Assembly: GCA_946482345.1 (NCBI GenBank)
Contig: CAMLRJ010000027.1
Coordinates: 1 to 15,805 of the forward strand
Reading direction: 5' to 3'
Length of the DNA stretch: 15,805 nt
Source of the DNA: an uncultured Cellvibrio sp.
GTDB taxonomy: Bacteria; Pseudomonadota; Gammaproteobacteria; Pseudomonadales; Cellvibrionaceae
The notes under the pieces are model-generated. The model saw only the letters and a program-made list of their open reading frames with translations, ran no database searches and was not told where the DNA came from. Each line of letters starts with the position of its first letter. Positions within the stretch are counted from its first letter, which is position 1. Below, piece after piece: positions 1-15,805 of the stretch. The position numbers and the translations under genes are program-made.

Positions 1-1
1 T

Positions 2-256
2 CCGGTTGCAGTTGCCTCGGGCCCCAAGACAGGCAAAGAGGTTTTTGAGAGCTTTTGTACAACCTGTCATACCGCTGGTGTGTTGAATGCCCCCAAATTG
101 GGTAATGCGGCTGATTGGGCTCCGCGAGTGGCGAAAGGTAAAGATACACTTTATAAGCATGCCATTGAGGGTTTCAACAGTATGCCTGCAAAAGGCATGT
201 GTTCTGCTTGTAGTGATGATGAGATCAAAGGTGCTGTGGATTACATGGCCAAATAA
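2..256 (+). CDS. Cytochrome c5 family protein (3' end only)
   Basis: Partial gene; the start lies left of the window and 84 residues are visible. It carries one covalent heme c site, CTTCH, at visible residues 19-23, and a likely axial methionine in SMPAKG (visible residue 61). Two cysteines spaced CSAC (67 and 70) follow, the extra pair typical of the cytochrome c5 branch of class I c-type cytochromes. The C-terminal stretch CSDDEIKGAVDYMAK also fits that family (CSDEE..AVdYM). Cytochromes c5 are periplasmic or membrane-anchored electron carriers that pass electrons to terminal oxidases or other respiratory enzymes; the partner here cannot be told. A strong intrinsic terminator follows 16 bases after the stop. 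The family call is firm; whether this is a single-heme or longer protein is unknown because the N-terminus is missing. Confidence 0.88.
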   Translation, partial: PVAVASGPKTGKEVFESFCTTCHTAGVLNAPKLGNAADWAPRVAKGKDTLYKHAIEGFNSMPAKGMCSACSDDEIKGAVDYMAK

Positions 257-272
257 GATCCCTGAATGAATG

Positions 273-298
273 ACGGCGCCTTGTGCGCCGTTTTTTTT
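273..298 (+). terminator. Intrinsic terminator of the cytochrome gene
   Basis: Perfect stem ACGGCGC / GCGCCGT around loop CTTGT, followed directly by eight T. It sits just past the cytochrome c5 stop codon and is a standard rho-independent terminator on the plus strand. Confidence 0.9.
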
Positions 299-560
299 GA
301 ACCCGATGCAAATTATTTAAGAAGAATCTACTTTTTTCCCCTATCAGTTTGTCCGTTGTCGTATAAATAAACCCGGTCATCATTTTGATACTGAATCAAA
401 AGGTTTGCGAAATACCAACCTGCCATAAATGATCTAGGCTTGATGTTAATTGGCTTTCCTGAAATCAGGTTGAGTTCCATTTTTACATCATCAATCACTA
501 CGGCAAGGATACAAATTTGCAAAATTCGAACTCATTTATGTGTTTGCAGAATGGTGCAAT
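299..560. other. Gene-free stretch upstream of the TonB receptor
   Basis: No convincing gene is seen here. Two short inverted repeats could be operator or hairpin sites for the receptor gene: TTTTGAT-ACTGA-ATCAAAA at 383-401, and CCTGA-AA-TCAGG at 458-469. No clear Fur box is present, and I could not fix a -35/-10 pair with confidence. A minus-strand reading frame covers much of this interval but lacks a ribosome binding site (see rejected items). Confidence 0.4.
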
Positions 561-2570
561 ATGCTAGTTAATCGACAGTCTCGCCACATCGCTGCCTGGC
601 TGTTGAGTTTATTGCCAATCGCTTCCCATGCTGATGATTATCTGGAAATGGATTTGGAAGAATTATTGACGCTGACAGTGAAGGGTTCCACTCTGCGCGA
701 TGAATCTCTCAAAACAGTACCTTCATCAGTGACCGTATTTACCAGGCAACAACTGGATGCTCTGGGGCTGGATTACCTGCATGAATTAATTAATCTGGTA
801 CCCGGTTTCCAAACCACACGCGGTGCCGATAGCCCGATAAATTACACCTACAGTGCGCGTGGTCGCCGTTTGGGTGTTCGTGCCCGGGAAATATTATTGG
901 TGGTTGATGGTCGCGTATTTTCTGATCCCCGTTCCAGTGGGGCGGATAGTGCGGTGAGCCTTTTCCCATTATCGAATATCGAGCGTATTGAAATTATTCG
1001 TGGGCCGGGTTCGGCTATTTATGGCTCGGGTGCATTTACCGGTGTGATCAACATTGTCAGCCGTCGTAACCAGCAGCGTTTTGCTATTGCGGCGGGCAGT
1101 GACGAACGGCGTAAAGCAGATATGAATATCTCGCAGCCATTAGGCAATCTGAAATTGGATCTTTATGCCCATGCCTATAAGGATAAAGGGCAGGATTATC
1201 GTCTGGCTTCTGTTGCGCAACCCACAACCGATGATCCGCGTCAGGATGTTCTGCTGGATCTTGAGCTCGCCTATGAAAACACCAAAGTAAAATTATTTAA
1301 TTCAAAACAACAAGGCGAAAATTTTTACACCCTGGAAAAAGTCAATAATGATTTCAATCAATACATTACCCGCTACAAAAATCTGCAAATAGAACAGGGG
1401 TTAAAACCTGCTGAAAATTGGAACTCCACATTTTCGCTGGGTTATTCAAAATCCTCGCAACTTTTTTATGGTGTTCTGGTGCCTGCAGGCAATCTGCAAA
1501 CCATCAGCCAGCCGGCCAGTACCCAGCCCATGTTGGCAAAAGTATTGTTGGCGGGAGAAGTTTATGGTGCATCGCTGGCGAATGATTTAACGCTCAGTGA
1601 CATCAGCAGTGTGCAATTTGGTCTGGAGTGGCGATATGAGCGTGAGACCGATGCCAAAGCAGACACCAATTATGATTTGGGTCAGTTGGCATTGCGCGAT
1701 TACCCCATAGCCTATTACGGTGATTTTGATCAATCCTTCAAAGTGGGCACTGAAGCTTCAAGGAAAACAACCGGTATTTACAGCCAATTCCTGCACAGTT
1801 TGACCGATGCAACCCGCCTCACTCTCGGTGCCCGTTATGACTATTACCAATCCATAGGTGAACATGTCAGCCCACGCATTGCACTGGTGCATCAGCTGGA
1901 CGACAAGCAAACGCTGAAATTACTTTACGGTGAGGCGTTCCGCGCGCCCAGCATGGCAGAGACAGGTTTGCTGAATAATCCGGTGGTAGTGGGTAATCCT
2001 GATCTGGACAATGAAATTGTCAAAACTCTGGAGCTTCTGTGGCTGGGTAATTGGAACAACATGTCCATGTCAGCCACGATTTATCACAACCGCTATGAGA
2101 ACCCTATAGTTGGCGGGATGATAGGCACTACCAGAACCTATCTGAATGATTCGGATGATAGTAATTATGGTTGCGGTTTAAGGTTTGACTGGCAAGCGAC
2201 ATCGCAATGGTTATTGCGTGTGAATTACACCCACATGAAAGACCTGCCGGATACCGCCTTTCGCGAAGCCGATGATCTGGGAATATTGATGTTGAATTTC
2301 AATCAAAATAAATGGAATTGGAATCTGTCAGCCAACTATCAAGCCGAACGCCGTTACATGCTCACCCAAACCCAACAAGTCGCTCTGGATTCCCACTGGG
2401 TTGCCAACAGCAAACTCCGTTATCAATTCAACAATTCCATCAACATGAGTCTGGCAATAAAAAATCTTTTCGATAAAGACTATTCCAATCCTGCCCAGGG
2501 CACAGGTATCAGGGATGGCATTCCCAATCGCGGTCGTGAGTGGACATTGGGGGTGGAGCGGGAGTTTTGA
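561..2570 (+). CDS. TonB-dependent outer-membrane receptor
   Basis: A 669-residue outer-membrane receptor of the TonB-dependent family, which imports scarce ligands such as siderophores, cobalamin or glycans using energy from TonB-ExbBD. From the ATG at 561 the N-terminus is a signal peptide (basic MLVNRQSRH, hydrophobic AAWLLSLLPI, cleavage probably after SHA, residue 24). The plug domain spans about residues 50-168, with VPSSVTVFTRQQL, VVDGRVF and IERIEIIRGPGSAIYGSGAF followed by GVINIVSRR. The rest is the 22-strand beta barrel, ending in an aromatic (EREF), as outer-membrane proteins do. An acidic motif, MDLEELLTLTVKGSTLRDESL, precedes the plug, as in a common gammaproteobacterial branch; no sharp TonB box is visible. 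A GTG at 540 in the same frame would add seven residues before the signal peptide and is less likely. The ligand cannot be told from sequence. It has no partner transport genes alongside. Confidence 0.9.
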   Translation: MLVNRQSRHIAAWLLSLLPIASHADDYLEMDLEELLTLTVKGSTLRDESLKTVPSSVTVFTRQQLDALGLDYLHELINLVPGFQTTRGADSPINYTYSARGRRLGVRAREILLVVDGRVFSDPRSSGADSAVSLFPLSNIERIEIIRGPGSAIYGSGAFTGVINIVSRRNQQRFAIAAGSDERRKADMNISQPLGNLKLDLYAHAYKDKGQDYRLASVAQPTTDDPRQDVLLDLELAYENTKVKLFNSKQQGENFYTLEKVNNDFNQYITRYKNLQIEQGLKPAENWNSTFSLGYSKSSQLFYGVLVPAGNLQTISQPASTQPMLAKVLLAGEVYGASLANDLTLSDISSVQFGLEWRYERETDAKADTNYDLGQLALRDYPIAYYGDFDQSFKVGTEASRKTTGIYSQFLHSLTDATRLTLGARYDYYQSIGEHVSPRIALVHQLDDKQTLKLLYGEAFRAPSMAETGLLNNPVVVGNPDLDNEIVKTLELLWLGNWNNMSMSATIYHNRYENPIVGGMIGTTRTYLNDSDDSNYGCGLRFDWQATSQWLLRVNYTHMKDLPDTAFREADDLGILMLNFNQNKWNWNLSANYQAERRYMLTQTQQVALDSHWVANSKLRYQFNNSINMSLAIKNLFDKDYSNPAQGTGIRDGIPNRGREWTLGVEREF

Positions 2571-2594
2571 TGCACTTGATTAGAATTATCATGC

Positions 2595-2623
2595 TTGCCG
2601 CAAATGAATACTTTAAGTATCAT
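2595..2623 (+). promoter_or_regulatory. Candidate sigma-70 promoter of the methyltransferase gene
   Basis: TTGCCG (2595-2600), a 17-base spacer, then TATCAT (2618-2623) give a plausible -35/-10 pair, with transcription expected near 2630. This places the RNA start upstream of the GGAG site and GTG start chosen for the methyltransferase. A weaker alternative -10, TAGAAT at 2581-2586, lacks a good -35. Inference from motif match only. Confidence 0.45.
2608..2620. promoter_or_regulatory. C-box-like palindrome inside the M promoter
   Basis: ATACTTTAAGTAT is a perfect palindrome around one central base. It contains ACT-NNN-AGT, the same core seen in the two sites ahead of the controller gene (ACTCATAGT, and ACCTATAGT with one change). 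It lies between the candidate -35 and -10 of the methyltransferase promoter, where a bound C-protein dimer would block RNA polymerase. Single operators that repress M are known in C-controlled systems such as Esp1396I. Function here is inferred. Confidence 0.5.
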
Positions 2624-2654
2624 ACCGGCGGTTACGGTTCTCACGGAGTGCGCA

Positions 2655-3614
2655 GTGTCCAGGCAAAAAAAAAGTTACTTATCCATTAATGAAATTCATC
2701 AAGGAGATGCGGCTGAGCTCATAAAAAAAATAAAGCCGGATTCTGTTGCGTTAAGTTTTTGGTCGCCCCCTTACTTTGTTGGTAAAAGTTATGAGAAAGA
2801 TGCGACATTTGATTCATGGCAAAATTTACTTAAATCGACAATCGAAGGGCATGTGTCTGCTTTAAAACCCGGTGGCTTTTTGGTTATTAATATTGACGAT
2901 ATTCTTGCGTTTCCAGACCCCCATATTCCCAGGATTCAAGCGCCTAATACATCCAAACTAAGATCCCCCATTACCAAAGAAGATGTTTTAGCGGCAAAGA
3001 AAAAATACCCCGATTACAACAGAAATAAATTGGCAGAGTTGCTGGGTTGCAGTGAGCAAACAATTGATCGTCGGTTAAACGGGAATAATATTCGCGGTGG
3101 TAAATACAACACACAAACCAGGGTTTGTCTGGTTGGCCACTACCTTGAGCGATATGCTTATGATTGCGGGCTTTATCTTTACGATCGCAGGATTTGGGCC
3201 AAAGATCCAACCTGGCAAAATTCACAGTGGCACTCAAGTTCTTATAGAGCTGTAAGCGAGTTTGAACATCTCTATTTTTTTTGGAAGCCCGGTGAGACAG
3301 TTATTGATCGTAACAGGTTAAATGCGAAAGAGTGGTCGGAGTGGGGAAGTCGCGGCATCTGGCATATACGTTCGGTTCGTTCCAATAAAAACCACGAAGC
3401 TCAATTTCCGTTAGGGCTGGCTGATAGAGTCGTTCGCCTGCTTAGCGAGAAAGGGGATTTGGTGTTTGACCCCTTCATGGGAAGTGGAACCACGGCTATT
3501 GCGGCGATTAATAATGATCGACATTACATCGGTATAGAGAAAGAAAAGGATTACGTTGATTTAGCCAGGCGACGAATTGAGCAAGAGCAACAACAAATAA
3601 GAATGATTATTTAA
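2655..3614 (+). CDS. Type II DNA methyltransferase, beta-class, probably N4-cytosine
   Basis: A 319-residue site-specific DNA methyltransferase, the protective half of a restriction-modification system. Catalytic motif IV, SPPY, is at residues 37-40. The AdoMet motif I, FDPFMGSGTT, is near the C-terminus (271-280), preceded by HEAQFP (motif X-like, 248-252). Motif IV before motif I defines the beta group, and SPPY favours N4-cytosine over N6-adenine. Residues about 106-150 form an insert resembling a helix-turn-helix (NRNKLAELLGCSEQTIDRRL), probably part of target recognition. The GTG at 2655 was chosen because GGAG sits six bases upstream and because upstream starts (TTG 2595, ATG 2604) lack a ribosome site and overlap the candidate promoter. 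Nine consecutive A lie in codons 4-7. The gene ends overlapping the convergent endonuclease gene by eight bases. Target sequence is inferred from the R partner, not from M. Confidence 0.88.
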   Translation: MSRQKKSYLSINEIHQGDAAELIKKIKPDSVALSFWSPPYFVGKSYEKDATFDSWQNLLKSTIEGHVSALKPGGFLVINIDDILAFPDPHIPRIQAPNTSKLRSPITKEDVLAAKKKYPDYNRNKLAELLGCSEQTIDRRLNGNNIRGGKYNTQTRVCLVGHYLERYAYDCGLYLYDRRIWAKDPTWQNSQWHSSSYRAVSEFEHLYFFWKPGETVIDRNRLNAKEWSEWGSRGIWHIRSVRSNKNHEAQFPLGLADRVVRLLSEKGDLVFDPFMGSGTTAIAAINNDRHYIGIEKEKDYVDLARRRIEQEQQQIRMII

Positions 3615-4449
3615 TTCTTGGCTCAATGTAGGGACTGCTTTTGTCGAATTTAATTTTTTGGCAGCGCCAGTTATCCAGTTTTGCCAGAGGCCCCAGCTTT
3701 ATGCGAGTGCGTTTTCGCGCAACTTTCACTTCGTCTTTTCCTGGTGTGAGTAATCCTTCAACTTTCTTGTTCAGGTTTGGTCCATCGAATAATGCCAAGC
3801 CATTTGGAACACTAATTAACTCCAGATATTCAAGTGGTTGTTCGCCGAGGGATTTAACGGAATAGACAACTTTTATGTAAAAGGTGAGAGTTGGAATAAT
3901 GCGGCCATCAACAATATAAAAAGGGGTCAGCTCTGGTTGAAACTCTCGCGTGACCTGCGGCCCTTTCATCAAGGTTACATCGTTATATACTTTTCCTTCG
4001 CTATCCAATTTTCCATTTCCGGTCACCTGGTTTGGGCTGCAAACTACTTCGTCGGTGTTGTCTGTTGGTCCGGTTGATTTAGCGTCTATGTGTATGAATG
4101 CATTGTTAGTCATGAATCTAATGTCATGGCCATAGGGCACACCTAAAAAACGCACAGATTCAAACGTATTTGCTATTAATGAATATAAATGCCCTTCAAC
4201 CACTTTTTCGCCAACTTCTCCCCATGGGAAGGCCTCGCCACGTGGTTTGTGGCCGCGTTGTATAGGGGCATATTTTTCCCAAAACGGTTTGAGTTCAGCG
4301 GCTTTGTCAAAGTCTGCTTTTATTTGTGTTGAAATTGAAAAAATCTTTTGAATTAATATTTCAGTAATATCTTTTTCGAGTTGAAGCAAGACTTTACATC
4401 CATCACTTAACAATAGTGCGCGCGCGTCATCAAATTGTTTTGTATTCAT
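3607..4449 (-). CDS. Type II restriction endonuclease, BglI-like
   Basis: A 280-residue protein that I recognise as similar to restriction endonuclease BglI (about 299 residues, PD-(D/E)XK fold, cuts GCCNNNNNGGC). Blocks matching BglI as I recall it are LKPFWEKYAPIQRG (53-66), PWGEVGEKVV (75-84), GHDIRF (107-112), HIDAKSTGP (120-128), SPNQVTGNG (138-146) and SVPNGLALF (213-221). The BglI catalytic residues Asp116, Asp142 and Lys144 would correspond to D109, D122 and K124 here, so the enzyme looks intact. The start ATG overlaps the controller stop codon as ATGA, indicating translational coupling in a C-R operon. The 3' end overlaps the convergent methyltransferase gene by eight bases. Isospecificity with BglI is an inference. 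Base composition looks somewhat lower in G+C than the flanking genes, as expected for an acquired system. Confidence 0.87.
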   Translation of the reverse strand: MNTKQFDDARALLLSDGCKVLLQLEKDITEILIQKIFSISTQIKADFDKAAELKPFWEKYAPIQRGHKPRGEAFPWGEVGEKVVEGHLYSLIANTFESVRFLGVPYGHDIRFMTNNAFIHIDAKSTGPTDNTDEVVCSPNQVTGNGKLDSEGKVYNDVTLMKGPQVTREFQPELTPFYIVDGRIIPTLTFYIKVVYSVKSLGEQPLEYLELISVPNGLALFDGPNLNKKVEGLLTPGKDEVKVARKRTRIKLGPLAKLDNWRCQKIKFDKSSPYIEPRIK

Positions 4450-4682
4450 TTTTTATCCATTAACAGTACATCAACATCAATTTCAAGCGCAGAAGAAATT
4501 TTGTATAAATTCAACATGGAAACATTCCGTTCTCCGCGTTCTGCCGAGCCAATATATGTCCTGTGCAATTCAGTAATTGCAGCAAGCTCTTCCTGTGAAA
4601 GTTGCTTTTTTAGTCTTTGGCTTTTTAGGCGTAATCCAAAAGCTATCAGCAGCTCGGTTTCTTGTGGTGTGTATGTAGTCAT
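4446..4682 (-). CDS. Restriction-modification controller protein (C protein), HTH
   Basis: A 78-residue helix-turn-helix regulator of the Xre-like C-protein family. These dimers time expression of R-M genes so that methylation precedes cutting in a new host. The family signature is plain: GLRLKSQRLKKQLSQEELA, then HRTYIGSAERGERNVSMLN and a short C-terminal helix. HRTYIGS-ERGERNVS is near-diagnostic for C proteins. The frame is open upstream to 4733, but ATG 4682 is chosen: the encoded length then matches the family, the extension would run through the operator, and the predicted promoter places the RNA start on this very ATG (leaderless mRNA, known for several C genes). The stop overlaps the endonuclease start by four bases. 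Expected to activate its own operon at low level, shut it off at high level and repress M. Confidence 0.92.
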   Translation of the reverse strand: MTTYTPQETELLIAFGLRLKSQRLKKQLSQEELAAITELHRTYIGSAERGERNVSMLNLYKISSALEIDVDVLLMDKK

Positions 4683-4688
4683 GACGGG

Positions 4689-4716
4689 ATTGTATTGTTG
4701 GATGACTATAGGTCTA
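4689..4716 (-). promoter_or_regulatory. Promoter of the C-R operon (leaderless)
   Basis: Read on the minus strand: TAGACC (4716-4711), a 16-base spacer, then TACAAT (4694-4689). TACAAT puts the transcription start at about 4682, the A of the C-protein ATG, and no Shine-Dalgarno sequence precedes that ATG. The poor -35 fits a promoter that needs activation. Motif-based inference. Confidence 0.6.
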
Positions 4717-4729
4717 CAGACTATGAGTA
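4704..4729. promoter_or_regulatory. Tandem C-box operators of the controller protein
   Basis: On the minus strand two 11-base semi-palindromes, TACTCATAGTC (4729-4719) and GACCTATAGTC (4714-4704), are separated by TGTA, centres 15 bases apart. The pattern resembles the known C-box (GACTTATAGTC type) of Esp1396I-like systems. The distal site lies just upstream of the -35 (activation position). The proximal site overlaps the -35 and spacer (repression position), the standard architecture for C-protein feedback. Confidence 0.75.
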
Positions 4730-4754
4730 GCATTGCATGTTGGGAATCAAGACG

Positions 4755-4781
4755 AAAAGAGGGTTATGTATAACGTCCCTC
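4755..4781 (-). terminator. Possible weak terminator of rep
   Basis: On the minus strand GAGGG and CCCTC, with an inner GTTAT-AC-ATAAC, can form an imperfect hairpin followed by TTTTC. It begins within the rep stop codon and would separate rep transcription from the C-R operon just downstream on the same strand. The stem is imperfect and the T run short. Confidence 0.4.
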
Positions 4782-6792
4782 AATCAAACATACTCAACAA
4801 ATTGGTAATTGTTTCGCTGCCTTTTGCCTGATTTTTTTCTGGTGTCAATTCACCGAAACCTTCGCGTTCAATATCATCTTGCGGTAATTCATCCAGAAAA
4901 CGGCTGGGGGTGGTGTCGATGATTTCGCCGTATTGTTTACGTTTGGCGGCGAAGGTCATGCTGAGGGTGCGTTGCGCGCGGGTGATGCCGACGTAGGCGA
5001 GTCTTCTTTCTTCTTCGATATTGTTGTCGTCTATGCTGTTGCGGTGTGGAAGTAAATCTTCTTCCATGCCGACTAAAAATACATGCGGAAATTCCAATCC
5101 TTTTGATGCGTGTAATGTCATTAATTGCACGGCGTCGGTGTTGTCTTCTTCGGCTTGTTGTTCCAATAAATCGCGCAGAACCAATTTACCAATAGCGGAT
5201 TCAATTGATGGATCATCGTCTTGATCTTCTTGTCGTTGTAATGTTTTGGCGAGTGACTCGATCAGGTAATTCACATTCTCCATGCGTTTTTCGGCCGCTT
5301 TGCTGCTGCTGGAATTTTGGTGCAGCCAACCCTCGTAATCCATGTCATTAATCATTTCGCGAATTGCAGCAATGGCATCACTTTCAAAACATAAACGGGT
5401 AACGCGCTCAATCCAGCGCACAAAACCCGATAATCGTTCGTAGTTTTTTTCCGGTATGCGCGATTGCAAACCCAATTCGCTGACCGCACTGAATAAACTC
5501 AGGTGTCGCTCACCGGCATATTGGCCCAGTGCTTCGAGCGTGCTGGTGCCGATTTGTCGGCGAGGAGTGTTGATGATACGCAAAAAAGCGTTGTCATCAT
5601 CGGGGTTGATTAATAAACGCAAATAAGCCATTACATCTTTGATTTCCGTTTTGGAAAAAAATGATGAGCCGCCACTTAATTTGTAACTGATTTGGTGTTG
5701 CTGCAATTTCATTTCCAATAAACGCGATTGGTGATTGCCGCGATACAAAATCGCAAAATCACGGAATTGGTAATTGAATCGTAATTTTTGTGTGAGTATT
5801 TCGGTGGCGACCCGCTCGGCTTCGGCATCTTCATTGGGACAGCGAATTAAACGCAGCGGATCACCCAGACCCATCTCGCTCCAGAGTGCTTTATTAAATT
5901 CATGTGGATTGTTGGCGATTAATTGGTTGGCGGCGCGCAATATGCGACTGGTTGAGCGATAGTTTTGTTCGAGTTTGATCACTTCCAGTTGCGGATAATC
6001 CTGTTTCAGTAATGACATGTTTTCCGGGCGTGCGCCGCGCCAGGCGTAAATTGATTGGTCATCATCGCCAACCACTGTTAATGCACCACGTACACCAACT
6101 AGTAATTTAACCAATAAATATTGGCTGGAGTTGGTGTCTTGATATTCATCCACTAACAGATAGCGAATTTTCTTTTGCCAGTGCAATAAAATATCCGCAT
6201 GGGTTTGAAAAAGTTGCACTGGAATTAAAATCAAATCATCAAAATCAACTGCGTTGTACGCTTTCAGCGCTTGCGCATAAGCTTTATAAATAATCGCAAT
6301 TTTTTGTTCGCCTTCCGATTTGGCAAACGATTCTGCTTGATGTGGCAACACCAAATCATTCTTCCATTGGGAGATTTGTTGTTGTACCTGATTGAGTAAA
6401 TCCGAATCCTGATCGCCTTCGCGAAACAGTAATTCTTTTAACAAGCTGCGCGCATCTTCGGCATCAAAAATGGAAAAGCCGGGCTTAAATCCCAAGTGTT
6501 TATGTTCACGCCGAATAATATTCAAACCCAGATTGTGAAAGGTGGATACAGTCAAACCCTTGCTGGCATCACCACGCAAAAGATGACCGACGCGTTCCTT
6601 CATTTCGCGAGCTGCTTTATTGGTAAAAGTCAGGGCGGCAATATGGCGTGCGGGTATGTTGCACTCTTTGATGAGATAGGCAATTTTGCGTGTGATTACA
6701 CTGGTTTTGCCACTGCCCGCACCCGCCAGAACCAGGCAAGGGCCATCAATATAAAGCATGGCTTGGCGTTGACGGGAATTGAGCTGAGTCAC
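4780..6792 (-). CDS. rep: ATP-dependent DNA helicase Rep
   Basis: A 670-residue superfamily 1A 3'-to-5' DNA helicase closely resembling E. coli Rep, which helps the replisome pass DNA-bound proteins and supports restart of stalled forks. Motifs in order: Q motif LNSRQRQA at the N-terminus, Walker A AGAGSGKT (23-30), LTFTNKAAREMKERVG (motif Ia), Walker B LLVDEYQDTN (about 212-221), GDDDQSIYAWRGA (242-254, motif III), LEQNYRST (motif IV), LMTLHASKGLEFPHVF (motif V) and AYVGITRAQRTL (motif VI). GPCLVLAGAGSGKT and ARHIAALTFTNKA fit Rep rather than UvrD. Length matches the family. The GTG at 6792 is chosen over the TTG two codons upstream because AGGG stands seven bases before it. The R-M island lies immediately downstream; nothing links the two functionally. 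Confidence 0.95.
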   Translation of the reverse strand: MTQLNSRQRQAMLYIDGPCLVLAGAGSGKTSVITRKIAYLIKECNIPARHIAALTFTNKAAREMKERVGHLLRGDASKGLTVSTFHNLGLNIIRREHKHLGFKPGFSIFDAEDARSLLKELLFREGDQDSDLLNQVQQQISQWKNDLVLPHQAESFAKSEGEQKIAIIYKAYAQALKAYNAVDFDDLILIPVQLFQTHADILLHWQKKIRYLLVDEYQDTNSSQYLLVKLLVGVRGALTVVGDDDQSIYAWRGARPENMSLLKQDYPQLEVIKLEQNYRSTSRILRAANQLIANNPHEFNKALWSEMGLGDPLRLIRCPNEDAEAERVATEILTQKLRFNYQFRDFAILYRGNHQSRLLEMKLQQHQISYKLSGGSSFFSKTEIKDVMAYLRLLINPDDDNAFLRIINTPRRQIGTSTLEALGQYAGERHLSLFSAVSELGLQSRIPEKNYERLSGFVRWIERVTRLCFESDAIAAIREMINDMDYEGWLHQNSSSSKAAEKRMENVNYLIESLAKTLQRQEDQDDDPSIESAIGKLVLRDLLEQQAEEDNTDAVQLMTLHASKGLEFPHVFLVGMEEDLLPHRNSIDDNNIEEERRLAYVGITRAQRTLSMTFAAKRKQYGEIIDTTPSRFLDELPQDDIEREGFGELTPEKNQAKGSETITNLLSMFD

Positions 6793-6872
6793 AAGCAAAC
6801 CCTGTGGTTACGGTGGGCGGCGATTCTAGCAGTCCGGGTTTAAAAATCTAAGTGATTTTTTTACTGTTTGGC

Positions 6873-6900
6873 TTGATGGTTGATCAGACTAGGCTATAAC
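6873..6900 (+). promoter_or_regulatory. Candidate promoter of the GGDEF-EAL gene
   Basis: TTGATG (6873-6878), 16-base spacer, TATAAC (6895-6900) on the plus strand, in the 235-base gap between divergent rep and the signalling gene. It would give a leader of about 120 bases. Motif match only. Confidence 0.4.
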
Positions 6901-7027
6901 TCATGAGCGGTGTTTGGATTTTTAATGCGCCCAATTGATATAACAACAAGGATCAAATAAGGATTTAAAAAAACGTGACTTCCACTAAACTGATTTTTTT
7001 TCAAATCTGTAAGGGGAAATAATTTCC

Positions 7028-8758
7028 TTGAGTGAAAATGTTCGAGTGCTTTTCATCGACCCGGAACAGGGCGAGTATCTGTTGGTTGCCGAATTGTTGT
7101 CGCATATTCGTCATGTGGATTACGATTTGGTCTGGTGTCATTCTTTGGTGAAAGCCCTGCCACTTTTATTATCTGATGAGTTTGATGTGGCATTGGTCGA
7201 TTATTATTGGGGGCAAGATTCGGCGCGCGATTTATTAAATGTTACACGCATACAGGCTTGCAAAACACCGATTGTCATAATGACGGATGAAATAGAAAAA
7301 CAGGTAGCAGAAGATGCCATTCGTGTAGGTGCAGCTGATTATTTAATAAAAGATCAAATTGATGCTCCGTTGCTGGAACGAACCCTGCGTTATGCCATTG
7401 AACGCAAAACAATGGAGCAGCATCTTGCACGTCTGGCGCATTACGATTCGTTAACGGATATTCCCAATCGTATTCTTTTTCGAGATCGACTCGAGCACGC
7501 TATTTTGTTAGCTGAGCGTGACAACACTAATTTTTGTTTGATGTTTATTGATTTAAATGGATTCAAACAGGTTAACGATAATTTTGGTCACGATGCCGGT
7601 GATGAAATTATTAAGGTCTGTGCCCAACGATTGAATAATTGTTTGCGTCGAAGTGATTCCGTCGCCCGCATGGGGGGTGATGAATTTACCTTATTATTAC
7701 AGAATACCGATAACAATCGTGACGTTGCCTTGATCGCAGAAAAAGTGATTCAGGCTATATCACAGCCAACCATCATCAAGGGATATGAAGTGGTTGTTGG
7801 TTGCAGTATCGGTATTGCCATTTATCCACAAGCCGGTCGCGATGCAGAAAGTTTATTTAAACATGCAGATATGGCGATGTATAAAGCCAAACAGGATTCA
7901 GACAGTAATTATCAATTTTTTACGGAGTCCATGAATAAAGATGTCAAACGACAATTGCGAATGGAAGCGGATTTGCGTTTGGCATTAAAAAAACAACAAT
8001 TTATTTTGCATTACCAGCCGCGAATCGATGCGTCTACAGGTAAATTGGTGGCAGTAGAAGCCTTGTTACGTTGGAATAAACCAGGTACAGGTTTAATTAA
8101 CGCCAGTGAATTTATTGCGACAGCCGAAGAAACGGGTGTTATTACTGCAATTGGTTACTGGGTGATTCGACAGGCGTGTCATGATCTGAAGCATTTGCAA
8201 TCTGTGGCGGGCTATCAGGTCATGATGGCGATTAATTTATCGCTTAAACAATTTCGCGATGAAAATCTGGTGCACCATGTCGCCAGTATTTTTAATGAAT
8301 TTGCTGTTAATCCGGGTGATATTGAATTTGAAATTACGGAAACGGCGTTTTCTGAAAATCTTGACCTGATTACACTTTGCATGAAGCCATTGGCTTATTT
8401 CGGCGTTAATTTTTTACTGGATGATTTTGGCTCGGGCCACTCATCTTTATTGCATTTACAACGTTTGCCTATGAGCAGCGTTAAAATTGATTTGAATTAT
8501 TTGATTGAGTTAAATCGTAGTGTGGTTGATCGCCGTCTGGTTGCGGCGACTATTGCATTTGCCCAGCATTTGGGCAAGCAATTGGTTATTGAAGGTGTTG
8601 AAACTCAGGATCAACTTGAATGGTTGATCGGCCTCGGGTGCGATCAAATGCAAGGGCATTTATTTTCAGAGGCCGTTGAAATATCCGCTGTGTGTGACAT
8701 CTATTCTATGAGCAAGGATACCGATGTTTCTCGGGTAAGTGCGTCATTACCTCTGTGA
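7028..8758 (+). CDS. Response regulator with GGDEF and EAL domains (cyclic-di-GMP turnover)
   Basis: A 576-residue cytoplasmic signalling protein. REC domain (about 5-125): acidic residues D11 and E13, predicted phospho-acceptor D58 in VALVDYY, T86 and K108. GGDEF domain (about 138-300): DSLTDIPNR, FIDLNGFKQVND and an intact GGDEF at 216-220, with an RxxD inhibitory site (R207-D210) exactly five residues before it. EAL domain (about 312-560): EALLRW (344-349), AINLS, EFEITE, DDFGSG (465-470), VKID (485-488), EGVE (522-525) and QGH. All residues usually needed for diguanylate cyclase and phosphodiesterase activity appear present, so it may do either, depending on REC input. The start is TTG at 7028 with AGGGGA ten bases upstream; SENVRVLFID is a normal REC beginning. 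No cognate histidine kinase is adjacent. The direction of its net effect on biofilm or motility cannot be read from sequence. Confidence 0.93.
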   Translation: MSENVRVLFIDPEQGEYLLVAELLSHIRHVDYDLVWCHSLVKALPLLLSDEFDVALVDYYWGQDSARDLLNVTRIQACKTPIVIMTDEIEKQVAEDAIRVGAADYLIKDQIDAPLLERTLRYAIERKTMEQHLARLAHYDSLTDIPNRILFRDRLEHAILLAERDNTNFCLMFIDLNGFKQVNDNFGHDAGDEIIKVCAQRLNNCLRRSDSVARMGGDEFTLLLQNTDNNRDVALIAEKVIQAISQPTIIKGYEVVVGCSIGIAIYPQAGRDAESLFKHADMAMYKAKQDSDSNYQFFTESMNKDVKRQLRMEADLRLALKKQQFILHYQPRIDASTGKLVAVEALLRWNKPGTGLINASEFIATAEETGVITAIGYWVIRQACHDLKHLQSVAGYQVMMAINLSLKQFRDENLVHHVASIFNEFAVNPGDIEFEITETAFSENLDLITLCMKPLAYFGVNFLLDDFGSGHSSLLHLQRLPMSSVKIDLNYLIELNRSVVDRRLVAATIAFAQHLGKQLVIEGVETQDQLEWLIGLGCDQMQGHLFSEAVEISAVCDIYSMSKDTDVSRVSASLPL

Positions 8759-8813
8759 TTCAGTTGTTTAATGCAAATCGCTTGTTCAATCAATTTTCTG
8801 CACGCTAACTGAT

Positions 8814-10325
8814 TCACGCCGAGGTGCTTGCCTGTCTATCCAATGTTCTGTAACTCAATGCTTCAGAAATTTCTGTTAATGTAATTTGTTCTTTGTCTGC
8901 CATGTCAGCCAGCGTACGGGAAAGTTTTAATACTCTGTGTAATGCGCGTGTTGATAGCCCTAATTTTTCAATGGCCTGTTCTAAAAATTGTGAATCCTGC
9001 GCGCTGATTGCGCAATAGGTTTCCAGTTCGGATGCGTTGAGTTGATGATTGATTTTACCCTGGCGTTGCAGTTGAATGTGTCTCACTTTTTTAACGCGTT
9101 CGCGAATAATTGCACTGGGTTCGTTTTGCAGTTGTTTGGTCAGTAGCTCGCCTTGTTTTAATGCACGCACTGGAACATGCATGTCGATTCTGTCCAGCAA
9201 TGGCCCCGATAATCGGTCGCGATAACGACGAATTTGTTCAGATGTACATCGACACCGACTGTTATCACTGCCGTGATAACCACAAGGGCAGGGATTCATC
9301 GCAGCGATCAATTGAAATTTTGCGGGATAACACGCTTGTGCACGTGCACGTGAAATTCGCACTTCACCGTTTTCCAAAGGTTCGCGCAACACTTCCAATA
9401 CTTTTCGTTGAAATTCTGGAAGTTCATCCAAAAACAAAACGCCTGAATGTGCGAGAGAAATTTCACCGGGTTTTGGATTTGATCCGCCGCCGACTAATGC
9501 AGCAGCAGAACTTGTATGATGAGGTGCTCGAAATGGGCGCTGACCCAATGCAAGTTGACTGTCTGCAGATGCAACAGAATAAATTGCCGCAACATCCAGC
9601 ATTTCTCTTTCAGTTAATACGGGAAGTAATCCGGCCAATCGGCTGGCCAGCATGGTTTTTCCTGTACCTGGTGGCCCGTAAAGTAAAAGATTGTGTCCGC
9701 CCGATGCGCAAATTTCCAGCGCACGTTTTGCGTGTGATTGGCCTTTTACATCAGCAATATCCAATCCGCCTTCCTGTGCAACAGGTTTGGTAGGAATTTG
9801 TTGGTGTAAAAATTCGCGGCCGTGTAAATGCGCACAGACTTGCAATAAAGAATCCGCTGCATAAACGCGGGTTTGACTCCCCATCGCTGCCTCAGCTGCA
9901 TTATTTCGACTGATAATTAACGCGCGGTTTGCATCGCATGCGGCAAGTGATGCAGGCAGTGCAGCATTGACTGCGCGCAATTCTCCCGACAGTGCCAGCT
10001 CACCTAAAAATTCAGTTTCTTGTAAGCTTTCAAGAGGAATTTGTCCTGATGCTGCCAAAATTCCCAAAGCAATTGCCAAATCATAACGCCCACCTTCTTT
10101 GGGTAAATCTGCAGGTGCGAGGTTAACGGTGATGCGTCGTGCAGGAAATTCGAGATAGGAATTTAAAATCGCACTGCGAACGCGATCTTTGCTTTCTTTC
10201 ACGGCGGCTTCGGGTAATCCGACTATGGATAAAGCAGGCAGACCATTTGAGAGATGAACTTCAACTGTAACCAGTGGAGCTTCGATACCGAGTTTTGCGC
10301 GGGAATAAACAATAGCGAGTGACAT
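8814..10325 (-). CDS. comM: ComM/YifB family AAA+ ATPase (Mg-chelatase-like)
   Basis: A 503-residue protein of the YifB/ComM family. ComM is a hexameric helicase that drives branch migration when incoming single-stranded DNA recombines during natural transformation; the gene is also kept in bacteria not known to be competent. Residues 1-165 form the N-terminal Lon-like domain (SIVGLPEAAVKESKDRV, ITVNLAPADLPKEGGRYDLAIALGIL). The AAA+ core has Walker A GPPGTGKT (217-224), Walker B VLFLDE (296-301) and RPFRAPHH. Four cysteines in NPCPCGYHGSDNSRCRC (345-360) probably hold a metal, and LSGPLLDRIDMH is the sensor/arginine region. The C-terminal domain is the usual Mg-chelatase lid (LSTRALHRVLKLSRTLADM). 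ATG 10325 has AAGGA seven bases upstream. It lies downstream of ubiK on the same strand, 100 bases apart, and converges on the GGDEF-EAL gene. Confidence 0.94.
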   Translation of the reverse strand: MSLAIVYSRAKLGIEAPLVTVEVHLSNGLPALSIVGLPEAAVKESKDRVRSAILNSYLEFPARRITVNLAPADLPKEGGRYDLAIALGILAASGQIPLESLQETEFLGELALSGELRAVNAALPASLAACDANRALIISRNNAAEAAMGSQTRVYAADSLLQVCAHLHGREFLHQQIPTKPVAQEGGLDIADVKGQSHAKRALEICASGGHNLLLYGPPGTGKTMLASRLAGLLPVLTEREMLDVAAIYSVASADSQLALGQRPFRAPHHTSSAAALVGGGSNPKPGEISLAHSGVLFLDELPEFQRKVLEVLREPLENGEVRISRARAQACYPAKFQLIAAMNPCPCGYHGSDNSRCRCTSEQIRRYRDRLSGPLLDRIDMHVPVRALKQGELLTKQLQNEPSAIIRERVKKVRHIQLQRQGKINHQLNASELETYCAISAQDSQFLEQAIEKLGLSTRALHRVLKLSRTLADMADKEQITLTEISEALSYRTLDRQASTSA

Positions 10326-10425
10326 ATTTGCATCCTTGTAAATGAGTGAAACATCCAGTGGCGCGAACTATACCTGAGCGGGTTTGAATTGCCAATTACG
10401 GAGGACGCATTGCCGATCCTGTATC

Positions 10426-10653
10426 CTAAGAACGACTTTTTTCCATTTCCGCTAATTTTGCTTCCAGAGCTTCCAACTTTTCCCGAGTTCTTTGCAATAC
10501 CGCTGTTTGTGCATCGAATTGATCGCGGGTGACCAGATCCAACCGTGAAGCAGCGGATTCAATCAGGCGTTTCAAATCCTGACGAGAGATAAATTCTTCT
10601 TTGGGAAAATGCTGCTGCACTTGTTCCAATAATTCTTTAATTGGGGAAATCAT
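10426..10653 (-). CDS. ubiK: Ubiquinone biosynthesis accessory factor UbiK (BMFP domain)
   Basis: A 75-residue small protein of the YqiC/BMFP family, named UbiK for its role as accessory factor of the aerobic ubiquinone (coenzyme Q8) assembly complex, where it works with UbiJ. The N-terminal part (MISPIKELLEQVQQHFPKEEF) is amphipathic and matches the family, RDQFDAQTAVL is the conserved centre, and the C-terminus (about 50-72, RTREKLEALEAKLAEME) is the trimeric coiled coil. The ATG at 10653 has only a weak purine-rich site upstream. It is divergent from glnK across a 426-base control region and followed by comM on the same strand. Confidence 0.9.
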   Translation of the reverse strand: MISPIKELLEQVQQHFPKEEFISRQDLKRLIESAASRLDLVTRDQFDAQTAVLQRTREKLEALEAKLAEMEKSRS

Positions 10654-10809
10654 GATCTTTTCTCTGAAAAAATGTCACTTTGTGAGTCGTTGCTGCTGAC
10701 TATATCAGCTGTTGATTGGAATTTCCTGAATTGATTTTCCCTGCAAAAGTGCAAAATTTGCGGTAATAACCCCGGTATTTTTCTTGCGCAGCACATAAAA
10801 GCCTCTGTT

Positions 10810-10826
10810 TGCATCATTGTGGTGCC
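10810..10826 (+). promoter_or_regulatory. NtrC binding site, distal
   Basis: TGCATC-ATTGT-GGTGCC matches the NtrC consensus TGCACC-N5-GGTGCA at 10 of 12 defined bases. It is centred about 151 bases upstream of the predicted sigma-54 start, a normal enhancer distance. Confidence 0.65.
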
Positions 10827-10841
10827 GATGGTTTTGCTGTG

Positions 10842-10858
10842 CGCTCTCAATTGGTGCT
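10842..10858 (+). promoter_or_regulatory. NtrC binding site, proximal
   Basis: CGCTCT-CAATT-GGTGCT keeps the right half (5 of 6) and a weaker left half (3 of 6) of the NtrC consensus. Its centre is exactly 32 bases from the distal site, so both fall on the same face of the helix, as at the classical glnA enhancer. Confidence 0.5.
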
Positions 10859-10942
10859 CACTTTTCTTTTGTCAGGGGTATAACGTCAATCCAATCGCTT
10901 TAAAAATACCTAACCATATGTTTCTAAATGTTTTTTTTATAT

Positions 10943-10958
10943 TGGCCTGCCTTGTGCA
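10943..10958 (+). promoter_or_regulatory. Sigma-54 (-24/-12) promoter of glnK
   Basis: TGGCCT-GCCTT-GTGCA has the required GG (10944-10945) and GC (10956-10957) twelve bases apart and matches TGGCAC-N5-TTGCA at 8 of 11 bases. Predicted start is near 10969. With the upstream NtrC boxes it indicates induction under nitrogen limitation. Confidence 0.7.
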
Positions 10959-11040
10959 ATTTTCCCCGGGCAAATAGTTCGAGGATTTAGACGTCTTTAT
11001 TTTTATTAAGTGATGTTTGAATTCTGGAGTTTTCGATATT

Positions 11041-11058
11041 CCACATTTTTTTATGTGG
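11041..11058 (+). other. Leader hairpin ahead of glnK
   Basis: CCACAT and ATGTGG form a perfect six-base stem around a six-T loop, followed shortly by a T-rich run (11062-11067). It ends 10 bases before the CAGGAG ribosome site of glnK. It could act as a weak attenuator or mRNA stabiliser; function unproven. Confidence 0.4.
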
Positions 11059-11061
11059 TGA

Positions 11062-11418
<357 letters not shown>

Positions 11419-11470
11419 CAATAACGAAATCTATTAGTAGCAGTTGATTAATCACCTTAGGAGTCATCCC

Positions 11471-12925
11471 GTGAAAAAATTGATCTCAATGGGCGCCAAA
11501 ATCGCCCCGCTAGCAACGCTGGCAGCTTTATCTCTGGCCTCTGGACACCTTTTTGCGCAGGAAGCTGCTGAAGCCGCCGCCGCACCAGCCGCACCCAGTT
11601 TTGAAAAGGGTGATATAGCCTGGATGATGACCAGTACTCTGCTGGTTTTGTTTATGGTTTTGCCAGGTCTGGCACTCTTCTACGGCGGTATGGTTCGCGC
11701 CAAAAACGTTTTGTCGTTGGGCATGCAAATATTTGTCACTTTCTGTTTGATCAGTATTTTGTGGGCGATTTACGGTTACTCGCTGGCCTTTACTGCAGGC
11801 GGTAGCTTGGGAGAATTTATAGGTGGTTTTGATCGCCTGTTTTTAAAAGGCATGTTGGATGATGCAGGCAACCTCACAGCTGCTGCTACTTTCAGCAAAG
11901 GCATTTATATTCCTGAGTATCTTTATGCTGCATTCCAGATGACTTTCGCTGCATTGACACCTTGTTTGATAGTGGGTGCTTTTGCCGAGCGCATGAAGTT
12001 TTCTGCAGTGCTGTTGTTCATGGTCTTGTGGTTCACTTTCGCTTACTTGCCAATTGCACACATGGTGTGGTTCTGGGCGGGTCCTGATGCTTACACTACT
12101 GCTGAAGCCGGTGCTGCTGCTACAGCGGGTGCAGGTTTCCTTTTCCAACACGGCGCTCTGGACTTTGCCGGTGGTACAGTCGTTCATATCAATGCGGGTA
12201 TTGCCGGTTTGGTAGGTTGTTTGCTGATTGGTAAGCGTAAAGGTTTTGGTAATCAATCATTGGCTCCACACAATGTTCCTTTCACTATGATCGGTGCTGC
12301 GTTGCTCTGGGTGGGTTGGTTCGGTTTCAACGTAGGTTCAAACCTCGAAGCTAACGCTTTCGCCGCTCAAGTGTTTATCAATACTTTCATTGCAACAGCT
12401 GCTGCTGTATTGGCTTGGACTTTTGGTGAGTGGTTGTTACGCGGCAAACCTACCATGCTGGGTGCTGCTTCAGGTGCAATCGCGGGCTTGGTTGCAATCA
12501 CTCCTGCTTGCGGATGGGTCGGCCCAATGGGTGCACTTATCATCGGATTGATCGGCGGTTTCATCTGTATGTTGGCTGTGCTGAAACTGAAGGCCGCTTT
12601 GGGTTATGACGACTCATTGGACGTGTTCGGCGTTCACTGTGTTGGCGGGATCATAGGTGCGATTTTGACCGGTGTATTTAATAGCCCTGATCTGGGTGGT
12701 ACAGGCATATACGATTATGTGACAGGTACCTGGGGATATGCTGGTATGGGTACCCAGGTCTGGGCTCAAACCAAAGGCGTGTTGATTACCATTCTTTGGT
12801 CCGGTGTTGTCTCCTTTGTGGCTTATAAACTGGTCGATATCATCATAGGTCTGCGTGTAACAGAAGAAGTGGAAACTGAAGGTTTGGATACAGCCGAGCA
12901 TGGTGAGCGCGGTTACCACATGTAA
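11471..12925 (+). CDS. amtB: Ammonium transporter AmtB
   Basis: A 484-residue inner-membrane ammonium channel. GTG 11471 is the start: AGGAG lies seven bases upstream, whereas an earlier TTG at 11444 would sit before that ribosome site. The N-terminus is a signal peptide (MKKLISMGAKIAPLATLAAL, cleavage probably near LFAQ, residue 30), followed by an Ala/Glu-rich spacer and 11 membrane helices. Pore residues are present: D231 and H239 in LDFAGGTVVHINAG, and H389 in DVFGVHCVGG (twin histidines, H168/H318 of E. coli). The C-terminal tail (LRVTEEVETEGLDTAEHGERGYHM region) is the conserved segment that docks GlnK. The gene is sandwiched between two PII genes, so the channel may be gated by either. 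Confidence 0.96.
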   Translation: MKKLISMGAKIAPLATLAALSLASGHLFAQEAAEAAAAPAAPSFEKGDIAWMMTSTLLVLFMVLPGLALFYGGMVRAKNVLSLGMQIFVTFCLISILWAIYGYSLAFTAGGSLGEFIGGFDRLFLKGMLDDAGNLTAAATFSKGIYIPEYLYAAFQMTFAALTPCLIVGAFAERMKFSAVLLFMVLWFTFAYLPIAHMVWFWAGPDAYTTAEAGAAATAGAGFLFQHGALDFAGGTVVHINAGIAGLVGCLLIGKRKGFGNQSLAPHNVPFTMIGAALLWVGWFGFNVGSNLEANAFAAQVFINTFIATAAAVLAWTFGEWLLRGKPTMLGAASGAIAGLVAITPACGWVGPMGALIIGLIGGFICMLAVLKLKAALGYDDSLDVFGVHCVGGIIGAILTGVFNSPDLGGTGIYDYVTGTWGYAGMGTQVWAQTKGVLITILWSGVVSFVAYKLVDIIIGLRVTEEVETEGLDTAEHGERGYHM

Positions 12926-12934
12926 TCCTGATTC

Positions 12935-12954
12935 CTCCCCCGGTGACGGGGGAG
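12935..12954 (+). other. GC-rich hairpin after amtB
   Basis: CTCCCCC / GGGGGAG forms a perfect seven-base stem with loop GGTGAC, nine bases after the amtB stop. No T run follows, so it is not a standard intrinsic terminator. It may protect the glnK-amtB mRNA 3' end or partly reduce read-through to the second PII gene. Confidence 0.55.
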
Positions 12955-13017
12955 ATCTTGATGTGGTTTAGACAAATGGAATATTTGCCATAGAATAGAG
13001 AGCGATGACAGGTGCTT

Positions 13018-13429
<412 letters not shown>

Positions 13430-13443
13430 ATATGTTGCATCAG

Positions 13444-13473
13444 AAAAACGCTGCCATGAGCAGCGTTTTTTTT
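13444..13473 (+). terminator. Intrinsic terminator of the second PII gene
   Basis: AACGCTGC / GCAGCGTT stem with loop CATGA, preceded by an A run and followed by eight T (13466-13473). It closes the glnK-amtB-PII group. The A run means it could also work on the minus strand. Confidence 0.92.
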
Positions 13474-13586
13474 GCGGATAATTTGCTTGCAAGAAAAATT
13501 ATTACTAGAATTCCCAACATTGGGTGCGAACTTGAATAATGAATTCAAAGAAGCTGAATCGGTAATAACGTGTTCCAGGTGACAAT

Positions 13587-13904
13587 ATGAGTGATGAAGA
13601 TTCTATCAACGATGAATTGGAAGATTCCCCGATTGAAGGAGAAGAGGAGGTTGATGATGTAGAGGATGCGGTTGATGGAGGAGATGATGCAGGTTTTGCT
13701 GCAGCACCAGCGAGCAAAGTTGCTGATGAAATTGAAGCCATGGAAGATTTCAGTATAGCCTCTCGTCAAAAAGCCCGTGATGAATTGGAAGCACAAATAG
13801 CAGAGTTTTTGGCAAGAGGTGGAAAAATTTCCCAAGTGGAACCCAACGTTACAGCTGATCCTCCTAAAAAACCGACTTCCGACTACGGCGGTCGCCCGAT
13901 TTGA
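13587..13904 (+). CDS. sutA: Transcriptional regulator SutA (RNA polymerase-binding)
   Basis: A 105-residue protein matching SutA of Pseudomonas aeruginosa, which binds RNA polymerase and broadly adjusts transcription, including ribosomal RNA and maintenance genes, during slow growth. The layout fits: a highly acidic disordered N-terminus (about 1-45, rich in Asp and Glu), a central helix (about 58-78, RQKARDELEAQIAEFLARGG), and the conserved C-terminal tail beginning KISQVEPNV and ending ADPPKKPTSDYGGRPI, which I recall as nearly the same in Pseudomonas SutA. AGGTGA lies four bases before the ATG. It has terminators on both sides, so it is its own transcription unit. Its place beside the glnK-amtB region agrees with my recollection of the Pseudomonas gene order. 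The acidic run shows in the DNA as a GA-rich stretch. Confidence 0.85.
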   Translation: MSDEDSINDELEDSPIEGEEEVDDVEDAVDGGDDAGFAAAPASKVADEIEAMEDFSIASRQKARDELEAQIAEFLARGGKISQVEPNVTADPPKKPTSDYGGRPI

Positions 13905-13909
13905 TAGTT

Positions 13910-13941
13910 AAAAATAGCCTCCTTGTGAGGCTATTTTTTTT
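13910..13941 (+). terminator. Intrinsic terminator of sutA
   Basis: AAAAATAGCCTC / GAGGCTATTTTT forms a long perfect stem with loop CTTGT, followed by further T to 13941. The A run makes it potentially bidirectional. Confidence 0.92.
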
Positions 13942-13998
13942 GGTCGATTTTTTGAATCCAGTTGGATTAGAATGGCCGCACCTTGACTTCGCACCGCA

Positions 13999-14014
13999 TG
14001 GTACAGTTAATGCT
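13999..14014 (+). promoter_or_regulatory. Possible sigma-54 promoter ahead of the symporter
   Basis: TGGTAC-AGTTA-ATGCT has GG (14000-14001) and GC (14012-14013) twelve bases apart, matching TGGCAC-N5-TTGCA at 8 of 11 bases, with predicted start near 14025. No NtrC box was found nearby, so this is only a candidate. Confidence 0.35.
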
Positions 14015-14032
14015 TATCGATTGTTGAATTCA

Positions 14033-14046
14033 TATTGATATCAATA
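14033..14046. promoter_or_regulatory. Perfect 14-base palindrome in the symporter leader
   Basis: TATTGATATCAATA is its own reverse complement and lies in the AT-rich region upstream of the symporter, just past the candidate sigma-54 start. It resembles an operator for a dimeric regulator. It is not an FNR site, which needs four bases between TTGAT and ATCAA. Confidence 0.35.
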
Positions 14047-14132
14047 ATTTTTTGTGAATTTGCAACGATATTAATGATGAAATTTCCCCAGGCTTGTTCA
14101 ACCTGATTAATCAATTAACAGAGGATTGACTT

Positions 14133-14210
14133 ATGTTTCTCGCTCTTGTTTTTACTCTCATGCAGGTCAGTCACCTGATACCAGTTCATAAAGGAGGCAG
14201 CAAATGTTAA
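14133..14210 (+). CDS. Small 25-residue ORF coupled to the symporter
   Basis: ATG at 14133 with AGAGGA seven bases upstream opens a 25-residue frame reading MFLALVFTLMQ then VSHLIPVHKGGSKC. The first ten residues are hydrophobic; the end is basic. Its last codons contain the AAGGAGG ribosome site of the symporter, and its TAA (14208-14210) falls inside the symporter's second and third codons, so the two frames overlap by seven bases. This is the arrangement of a translationally coupled leader or of a small membrane accessory protein. I do not recognise the peptide. It shows no amino-acid run suggesting attenuation. Alternatively it is a chance frame; the good ribosome site argues against that. 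Confidence 0.5.
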   Translation: MFLALVFTLMQVSHLIPVHKGGSKC

Positions 14211-15664: not shown

Positions 15665-15672
15665 TTTTTTAG

Positions 15673-15700
15673 AAGGGCAAGTGATCAATCACTTGCCCTT
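15673..15700. terminator. Long perfect hairpin between the symporter and hemC
   Basis: AAGGGCAAGTGA / TCACTTGCCCTT is a perfect 12-base stem with loop TCAA, nine bases after the symporter stop. The plus-strand side has no T run after it (GTGCCTC), so it is not a classic intrinsic terminator, though its stability suggests termination or 3'-end protection of the symporter mRNA. Confidence 0.55.
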
Positions 15701-15722
15701 GTGCCTCTTGTTGGAGTTCAAG

Positions 15723-15731
15723 TGTTATGAT
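15723..15731 (+). promoter_or_regulatory. Candidate extended -10 promoter of hemC
   Basis: TG-T-TATGAT is an extended -10 element with no clear -35; the predicted start is near 15738, giving a short leader to the hemC ATG at 15764. Confidence 0.35.
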
Positions 15732-15763
15732 TCGCACTTTGCCAACTCTCAGTGTTTGATTTT

Positions 15764-15805
15764 ATGTCTGAAGCGCCAACTTTACGCATTGCCACCCGAA
15801 AGAGT
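15764..15805 (+). CDS. hemC: Hydroxymethylbilane synthase HemC (5' end only)
   Basis: Only 14 codons are visible: MSEAPTLRIATRKS. The LRIATRKS/LRIATRQS start is characteristic of HemC (porphobilinogen deaminase), the cytoplasmic enzyme that joins four porphobilinogen units into hydroxymethylbilane for heme synthesis. The gene runs off the right edge. The call rests on this short but distinctive N-terminus. Confidence 0.8.
   Translation, partial: MSEAPTLRIATRKS

Follow-up and report, generated by a model that had tools for sequence, protein, structure and literature searches.

The BglI system of Bacillus globigii (PDB 1dmu) pairs an endonuclease (R) with a methyltransferase (M), M.BglI, which makes N4-methylcytosine (m4C) and yields G(m4C)CNNNNNGGC; 98.8% of BglI sites were called modified, and the same paper names C.BglII but no controller (C) gene for BglI (PMC4882945). 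SfiI (PDB 2ezv; PF11487, type IIF) works as a tetramer on two sites. Its recognition loop is without the D150 contact of BglI (PMC548270). Regulation has been described in other systems. The C protein of Esp1396I represses M from a single site, and the C-R and M genes are convergent (PMC4041747); in AhdI the methyltransferase is its own repressor, and EcoRV relies on promoter overlap (PMC11736437). Here we analyse a three-gene cassette, M (+), R (-) and C (-), in a 15,805-nucleotide stretch of an uncultured Cellvibrio sp. (contig CAMLRJ010000027.1, positions 1 to 15,805; hereafter the window). Very probably it is a complete BglI-like type IIP restriction-modification cassette regulated by C, with a probable action of C on the M promoter as well. 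Judged by its sequence, the cassette is real, apparently intact, and a further BglI-type member of a kind already known.

The endonuclease and the methyltransferase

R (3607..4449, minus strand, 280 aa) matches the Pfam family Endonuc_BglI (PF14562) at 233.4 bits (E 4.3e-69; curated cut-off 25 bits) and the BglI chain of 1dmu by phmmer at E 7.6e-40, and its predicted fold matches that of BglI. The original prediction had proposed this relationship, together with the blocks PWGEVGEK, DAKS, SPNQVTGNG and SVPNGLALF and with D109, D122 and K124 as catalytic residues. All of it was confirmed: the blocks are present in R, the alignment to BglI is significant, and it places E81, D109, D122 and K124 on BglI E87, D116, D142 and K144, whose roles and numbering are given in PMC548270. 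The four residues are invariant in 27/27 aligned sequences, window R included. Identity to BglI is about 40%, and a 13-residue stretch of BglI is absent from R. A BglI-family protein of 479 aa (P0036, in a Methylococcaceae record) carries an extra PF13507 domain, which may reflect a fusion or an annotation error.

M (2655..3614, plus strand, 319 aa) matches PF01555 (E 9.6e-41) and the PADLOC type II methyltransferase model PDLC03260 (496 bits), and its motifs WSPPY and FMGSGT are those of a beta-class N4/N6 amino-methyltransferase. Given that an amino-methyltransferase would here act on a target whose defined bases are only G and C, its product would be m4C. Ten aligned M relatives, taken from their likely starts, belong to the same protein family and share an inner block, around CSEQTIDRRLNGNNIRGGKY, that is strongly conserved, has the appearance of a helix-turn-helix and may aid target reading. 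In one related locus (L004:5813-9190, minus strand) the M frame is 1125 aa long and its extra N-terminal part begins in a helix-turn-helix-like manner, possibly a fusion.

The claim that all three genes are intact stands in so far as the M, R and C frames are open, but the starts at 2595 for M and 4733 for the C reading frame both had to be corrected. TTG 2595 is an unlikely start for M because this codon forms part of the -35 element in the promoter predicted for M (TTGCCG, 17-nt spacer, TATCAT; 2595..2623, plus strand; 9/12 in a consensus scan, assigned by position). GTG 2655 is the better choice: a ribosome-binding-like CGGAG, read in the sequence at 2644..2648 (plus strand), lies 6 nt upstream, and this start also fits the relatives and the promoter position. 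A C start at 4733 was rejected since the C-box at 4704-4729 would fall inside that extension; ATG 4682 gives 78 aa.

Probable target word and its depletion in carrier genomes

R probably recognises the same word as BglI, GCCNNNN^NGGC. The original prediction had proposed GCCNNNNNGGC by analogy only, and support now comes from the family, through depletion in 8/10 carrier genomes, but not from the window alone. An enzyme resident for long may purge its own word from the genome while the same half-sites at other spacings persist. We therefore divided the whole-genome count of GCC-N5-GGC (k5) by the mean of the counts at spacings four and six (k4 and k6) in an unselected set, the ten genomes G001 to G010 that carry the loci L001 to L010 found by an alignment-based search. 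The k4/k5/k6 counts were 1299/42/1435 in G007 (ratio 0.031), 1069/43/1424 in G004 (0.034), 2854/213/4281 in G005 (0.060), 1943/252/2396 in G009 (0.12), 575/96/617 in G003 (0.16), 3843/1729/4059 in G002 (0.44), 2889/1472/3814 in G008 (0.44), 364/208/480 in G006 (0.49), 1310/1367/1847 in G010 (0.87) and 695/901/965 in G001 (1.09). The ratio is thus below 0.5 in eight of the ten carriers, in one of them barely, and about 0.16 or less in five. L009, 59% identical to window R over the R piece aligned, lies in the depleted G009, though its R is split between frames.

Codon phase is not the cause of the dip, as spacing 8, which shares the phase of spacing 5, is not low in the five most depleted genomes (681 in G003, 1152 in G004, 4014 in G005, 1096 in G007 and 2448 in G009). 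In 20 stretches from four carriers a single k5 site was found, and the other twelve spacings between 0 and 12 averaged about 132; both these stretches and the five spacing-8 genomes were chosen because they had already been seen to be depleted. By comparison, in ten genomes that had no match to the family, 19 stretches held 242 k5 sites against about 233 at other spacings. Six of the 42 residual GCCN5GGC sites in the 5.7-Mb genome G007 lie within 50 kb of one contig (C18:262366-312149), perhaps recently acquired DNA.

Could R be like BglI in fold and yet read another or longer word, such as the SfiI site GGCCNNNNNGGCC? Some observations limit the case for a shared target. Of the five residues with which BglI contacts bases (D150, K266, D268, R277 and R279) four are identical in R, and D268 is replaced by E240. 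There is no real depletion in G001 or G010, and the former carries L001, whose R is 60% identical to that of the window. The window itself has no GCC-N5-GGC site where 3.1 are expected, a count that is not significant and was rejected as proof of the target, given that 5/41 spacings are equally at zero there. The D268 column, however, is variable among the 27 sequences (E in 20, I in 4, and D, Q and T in one each), and carriers with E, I and D at this position are all found among the depleted genomes. Where R covers the remaining contact residues, depleted and undepleted carriers do not differ in them, so that missing depletion in a carrier may reflect a recent arrival of the system. As to SfiI, phmmer gave no match between it and R at E up to 10, and R has, instead of an SfiI-type loop, one of the same length as BglI residues 146-155 with D150 kept as D130. 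Moreover, the relatives are depleted in the 6-base word, not an 8-base one: five carriers retain the entire 6-base word at only about 3-16%, a loss that an 8-base target would not cause. We therefore consider a different or longer word highly improbable.

The controller and its predicted operators

Directly upstream of R lies a small helix-turn-helix gene, C (4446..4682, minus strand); its stop and the beginning of R share 4 nt (ATGA, 4446-4449), predicting a single operon. That this is a controller gene, as had been proposed, is borne out by its matches to solved controllers and by a C-box. By sequence, the closest solved controllers are C.BclI (2b5a; E 2.6e-15) and C.AhdI (1y7y; E 7.2e-14), both nearer than C.Esp1396I (E 4.7e-7), and the longer C reading frame matched the PADLOC model Control_protein at E 1.1e-20. 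The C.BclI and C.AhdI systems use other endonucleases. The C-box, CTACTCATAGTCTGTAGACCTATAGTC, lies upstream of C on the minus strand and holds two predicted 11-base operators 15 bp apart, the left one at 4719..4729 and the right, gene-proximal one at 4704..4714. Its ATAGTC halves are shared by Esp1396I oligonucleotides given in PMC3758141. The predicted C-R promoter (TAGACC, 16-nt spacer, TACAAT; 4689..4716, minus strand; 9/12 in the consensus scan, assigned by position) has a -10 element whose end is separated from the C ATG by 6 nt. Transcripts of C genes often have no leader, and this spacing is what such a transcript would require.

A possible third operator is the palindrome ATACTTTAAGTAT at 2608..2620, over the -10 of the M promoter, suggested by a pattern match and by its position among related systems. 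It is the sole match in the window to ATACTNNNAGTAT at up to one mismatch, with 0.22 expected for a pattern that was chosen after seeing the site. We scanned about 110 bp upstream of M in related loci with a leave-one-out matrix built from C-R operators (eight boxes, picked by eye). In all six systems with an AGTC-type box and a readable M promoter, the top-scoring operator-like site falls 22-35 bp upstream of the M start, as against 89, 6, 6 and 41 bp in four loci without such a box (L001, L003, L006 and L008). Within its locus this site ranks first in three of the six (L002, L007 and L010), a strong result; the other three, at rank 8 in L021, 30 in L005 and 52 in the window, are weak by the matrix.

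The arrangement, R itself apart, resembles Esp1396I: C and R lie in a predicted operon that faces M tail to tail, a pair of operators precedes C, and a single one may precede M. The possible M operator overlaps the predicted -10 in the window, whereas in Esp1396I the M operator overlaps the transcription start. How would such a system work? R would cut foreign DNA at GCCNNNN^NGGC, as BglI does, and M would shield the host's own sites by N4-methylation of cytosine. In a new host, low basal C-R transcription would let M act first; C dimers on the left operator would then activate C and R, and once C is more abundant it would occupy the right operator too, switching C-R off. As in Esp1396I, C probably has a further site, the single operator at the M promoter, from which it would reduce M.

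It is possible, if somewhat doubtful, that C governs only C and R, as in PvuII-like systems, with M constitutive or self-controlled and the palindrome at 2608-2620 a product of chance. Its rank of only 52 among 15753 positions in the window, by the leave-one-out matrix and for a pattern picked after the site was seen, speaks for this view, as does L001, whose best site, 89 bp before M, ranked second despite the lack of this box type. L006 gave a rank-5 hit; both hits lie at other distances from M. Self-repression of M in AhdI and promoter overlap in EcoRV (PMC11736437) are ready alternatives to C acting on M. The promoter scan gives no help either, with 3 hits in the region against a shuffle mean of 5.1, and as it is not above chance it was rejected as proof when taken alone. 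Against a chance palindrome stand the narrow range of distances in all six box-type systems, which the loci without the box do not share, and the first rank in half of them.

A silent relic, intact in sequence but unexpressed or inactive, is a further though unlikely explanation. In two relatives (L006 and L009) R is split between two frames; an assembly error is possible in these cases, and L006 lies on a low-coverage contig. In the window, all three frames are open and the catalytic residues, C-box and promoter-like elements are in place; moreover, a nearly identical R (P0002, 99%) stands on another contig.

Related loci and genomic setting

The original prediction implied that a controller is an unusual companion of a BglI-like gene. 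The comparison of 13 loci (L001-L010, L021, L035 and L036; 15 weak partial matches were dropped before counting) shows the opposite: a controller-like gene is the usual neighbour. A helix-turn-helix gene lies directly upstream of R in ten of them (L001, L002, L005, L007, L008, L009, L010, L021, L035 and L036), and none was seen there in L003, L004 and L006. Seven loci carry a C-box similar to that of the window (L002, the least alike, L005, L007, L009, L010, L021 and L036), while none of this type was recognised in L001, L003, L004, L006, L008 and L035. The regulators of L008 (two genes in tandem, L008:4403-4958) and L035 (read by eye) are of another helix-turn-helix type and occupy the C position, so that the regulator seems exchangeable. 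M is convergent with R in 11/13 loci, and the stretch examined was without M in L009 and L036. The locus of Vibrio anguillarum (L001) shares with the window the C-R order, a convergent M and an R of about 60% identity, but has no AGTC-type box and lies in an undepleted genome; that of Brenneria salicis (L009) shares the C-R order, a nearly identical C-box and an R of about 60% identity, but its contig ends before M. Our literature search, which left REBASE and most subscription papers outside its coverage, found no paper on a controller gene in a BglI-family system.

The family is rare. Searched by tblastn, R had no match among plasmids and phages, nor did it match viral contigs; as a single sequence it had none among genome contigs, where an alignment query then found 10 loci. 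The draws from the genus Vibrio (1/196) and from gammaproteobacteria (1/369) returned only the starting genome, and a draw from the order of G010 gave 3/390. Among Chloroflexota 16/400 matched, namely 3 at full length and 13 weakly in the C-terminal part, and among Acidobacteriota 4/297, namely 1 at full length, 1 N-terminal piece (L036) and 2 weak matches.

In the window, the cassette lies between a TonB-dependent receptor gene (end 2570) and rep (end 4780), with R and M tail to tail and overlapping by 8 bp (3607-3614). Six window proteins were scanned against Pfam and NCBIfam, and none of the six was an integrase or transposase. In the stretches compared from four rep relatives, tblastn at E 1e-5 detected none of M, R and C. 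These relatives are 59-61% identical in rep, with the order rep-yifB-ubiK-glnK-amtB kept in two of the four, and their distance is too great for the insertion ends of the cassette to be located. Further along (11080-13429), an AmtB-like gene is flanked by two GlnK-like genes, with identities assigned by eye and from tblastn against relatives.

Taken together, the window adds a C-regulated relative of BglI that is complete in sequence and whose promoter layout can be tested. Counting a word beside its own half-sites at different spacings in carrier genomes offers a check of a predicted restriction target that needs no wet work, and strong depletion in some hosts beside none in others could help tell the residence time of such a system. 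With moderate confidence, we picture the BglI family as largely C-controlled and present in several phyla, where a single C often acts on three operators (two before C-R and one before M), and as resident long enough in some lineages to have purged its target to about 3% of neighbouring spacings; the window would then represent a gammaproteobacterial-looking branch of this family.
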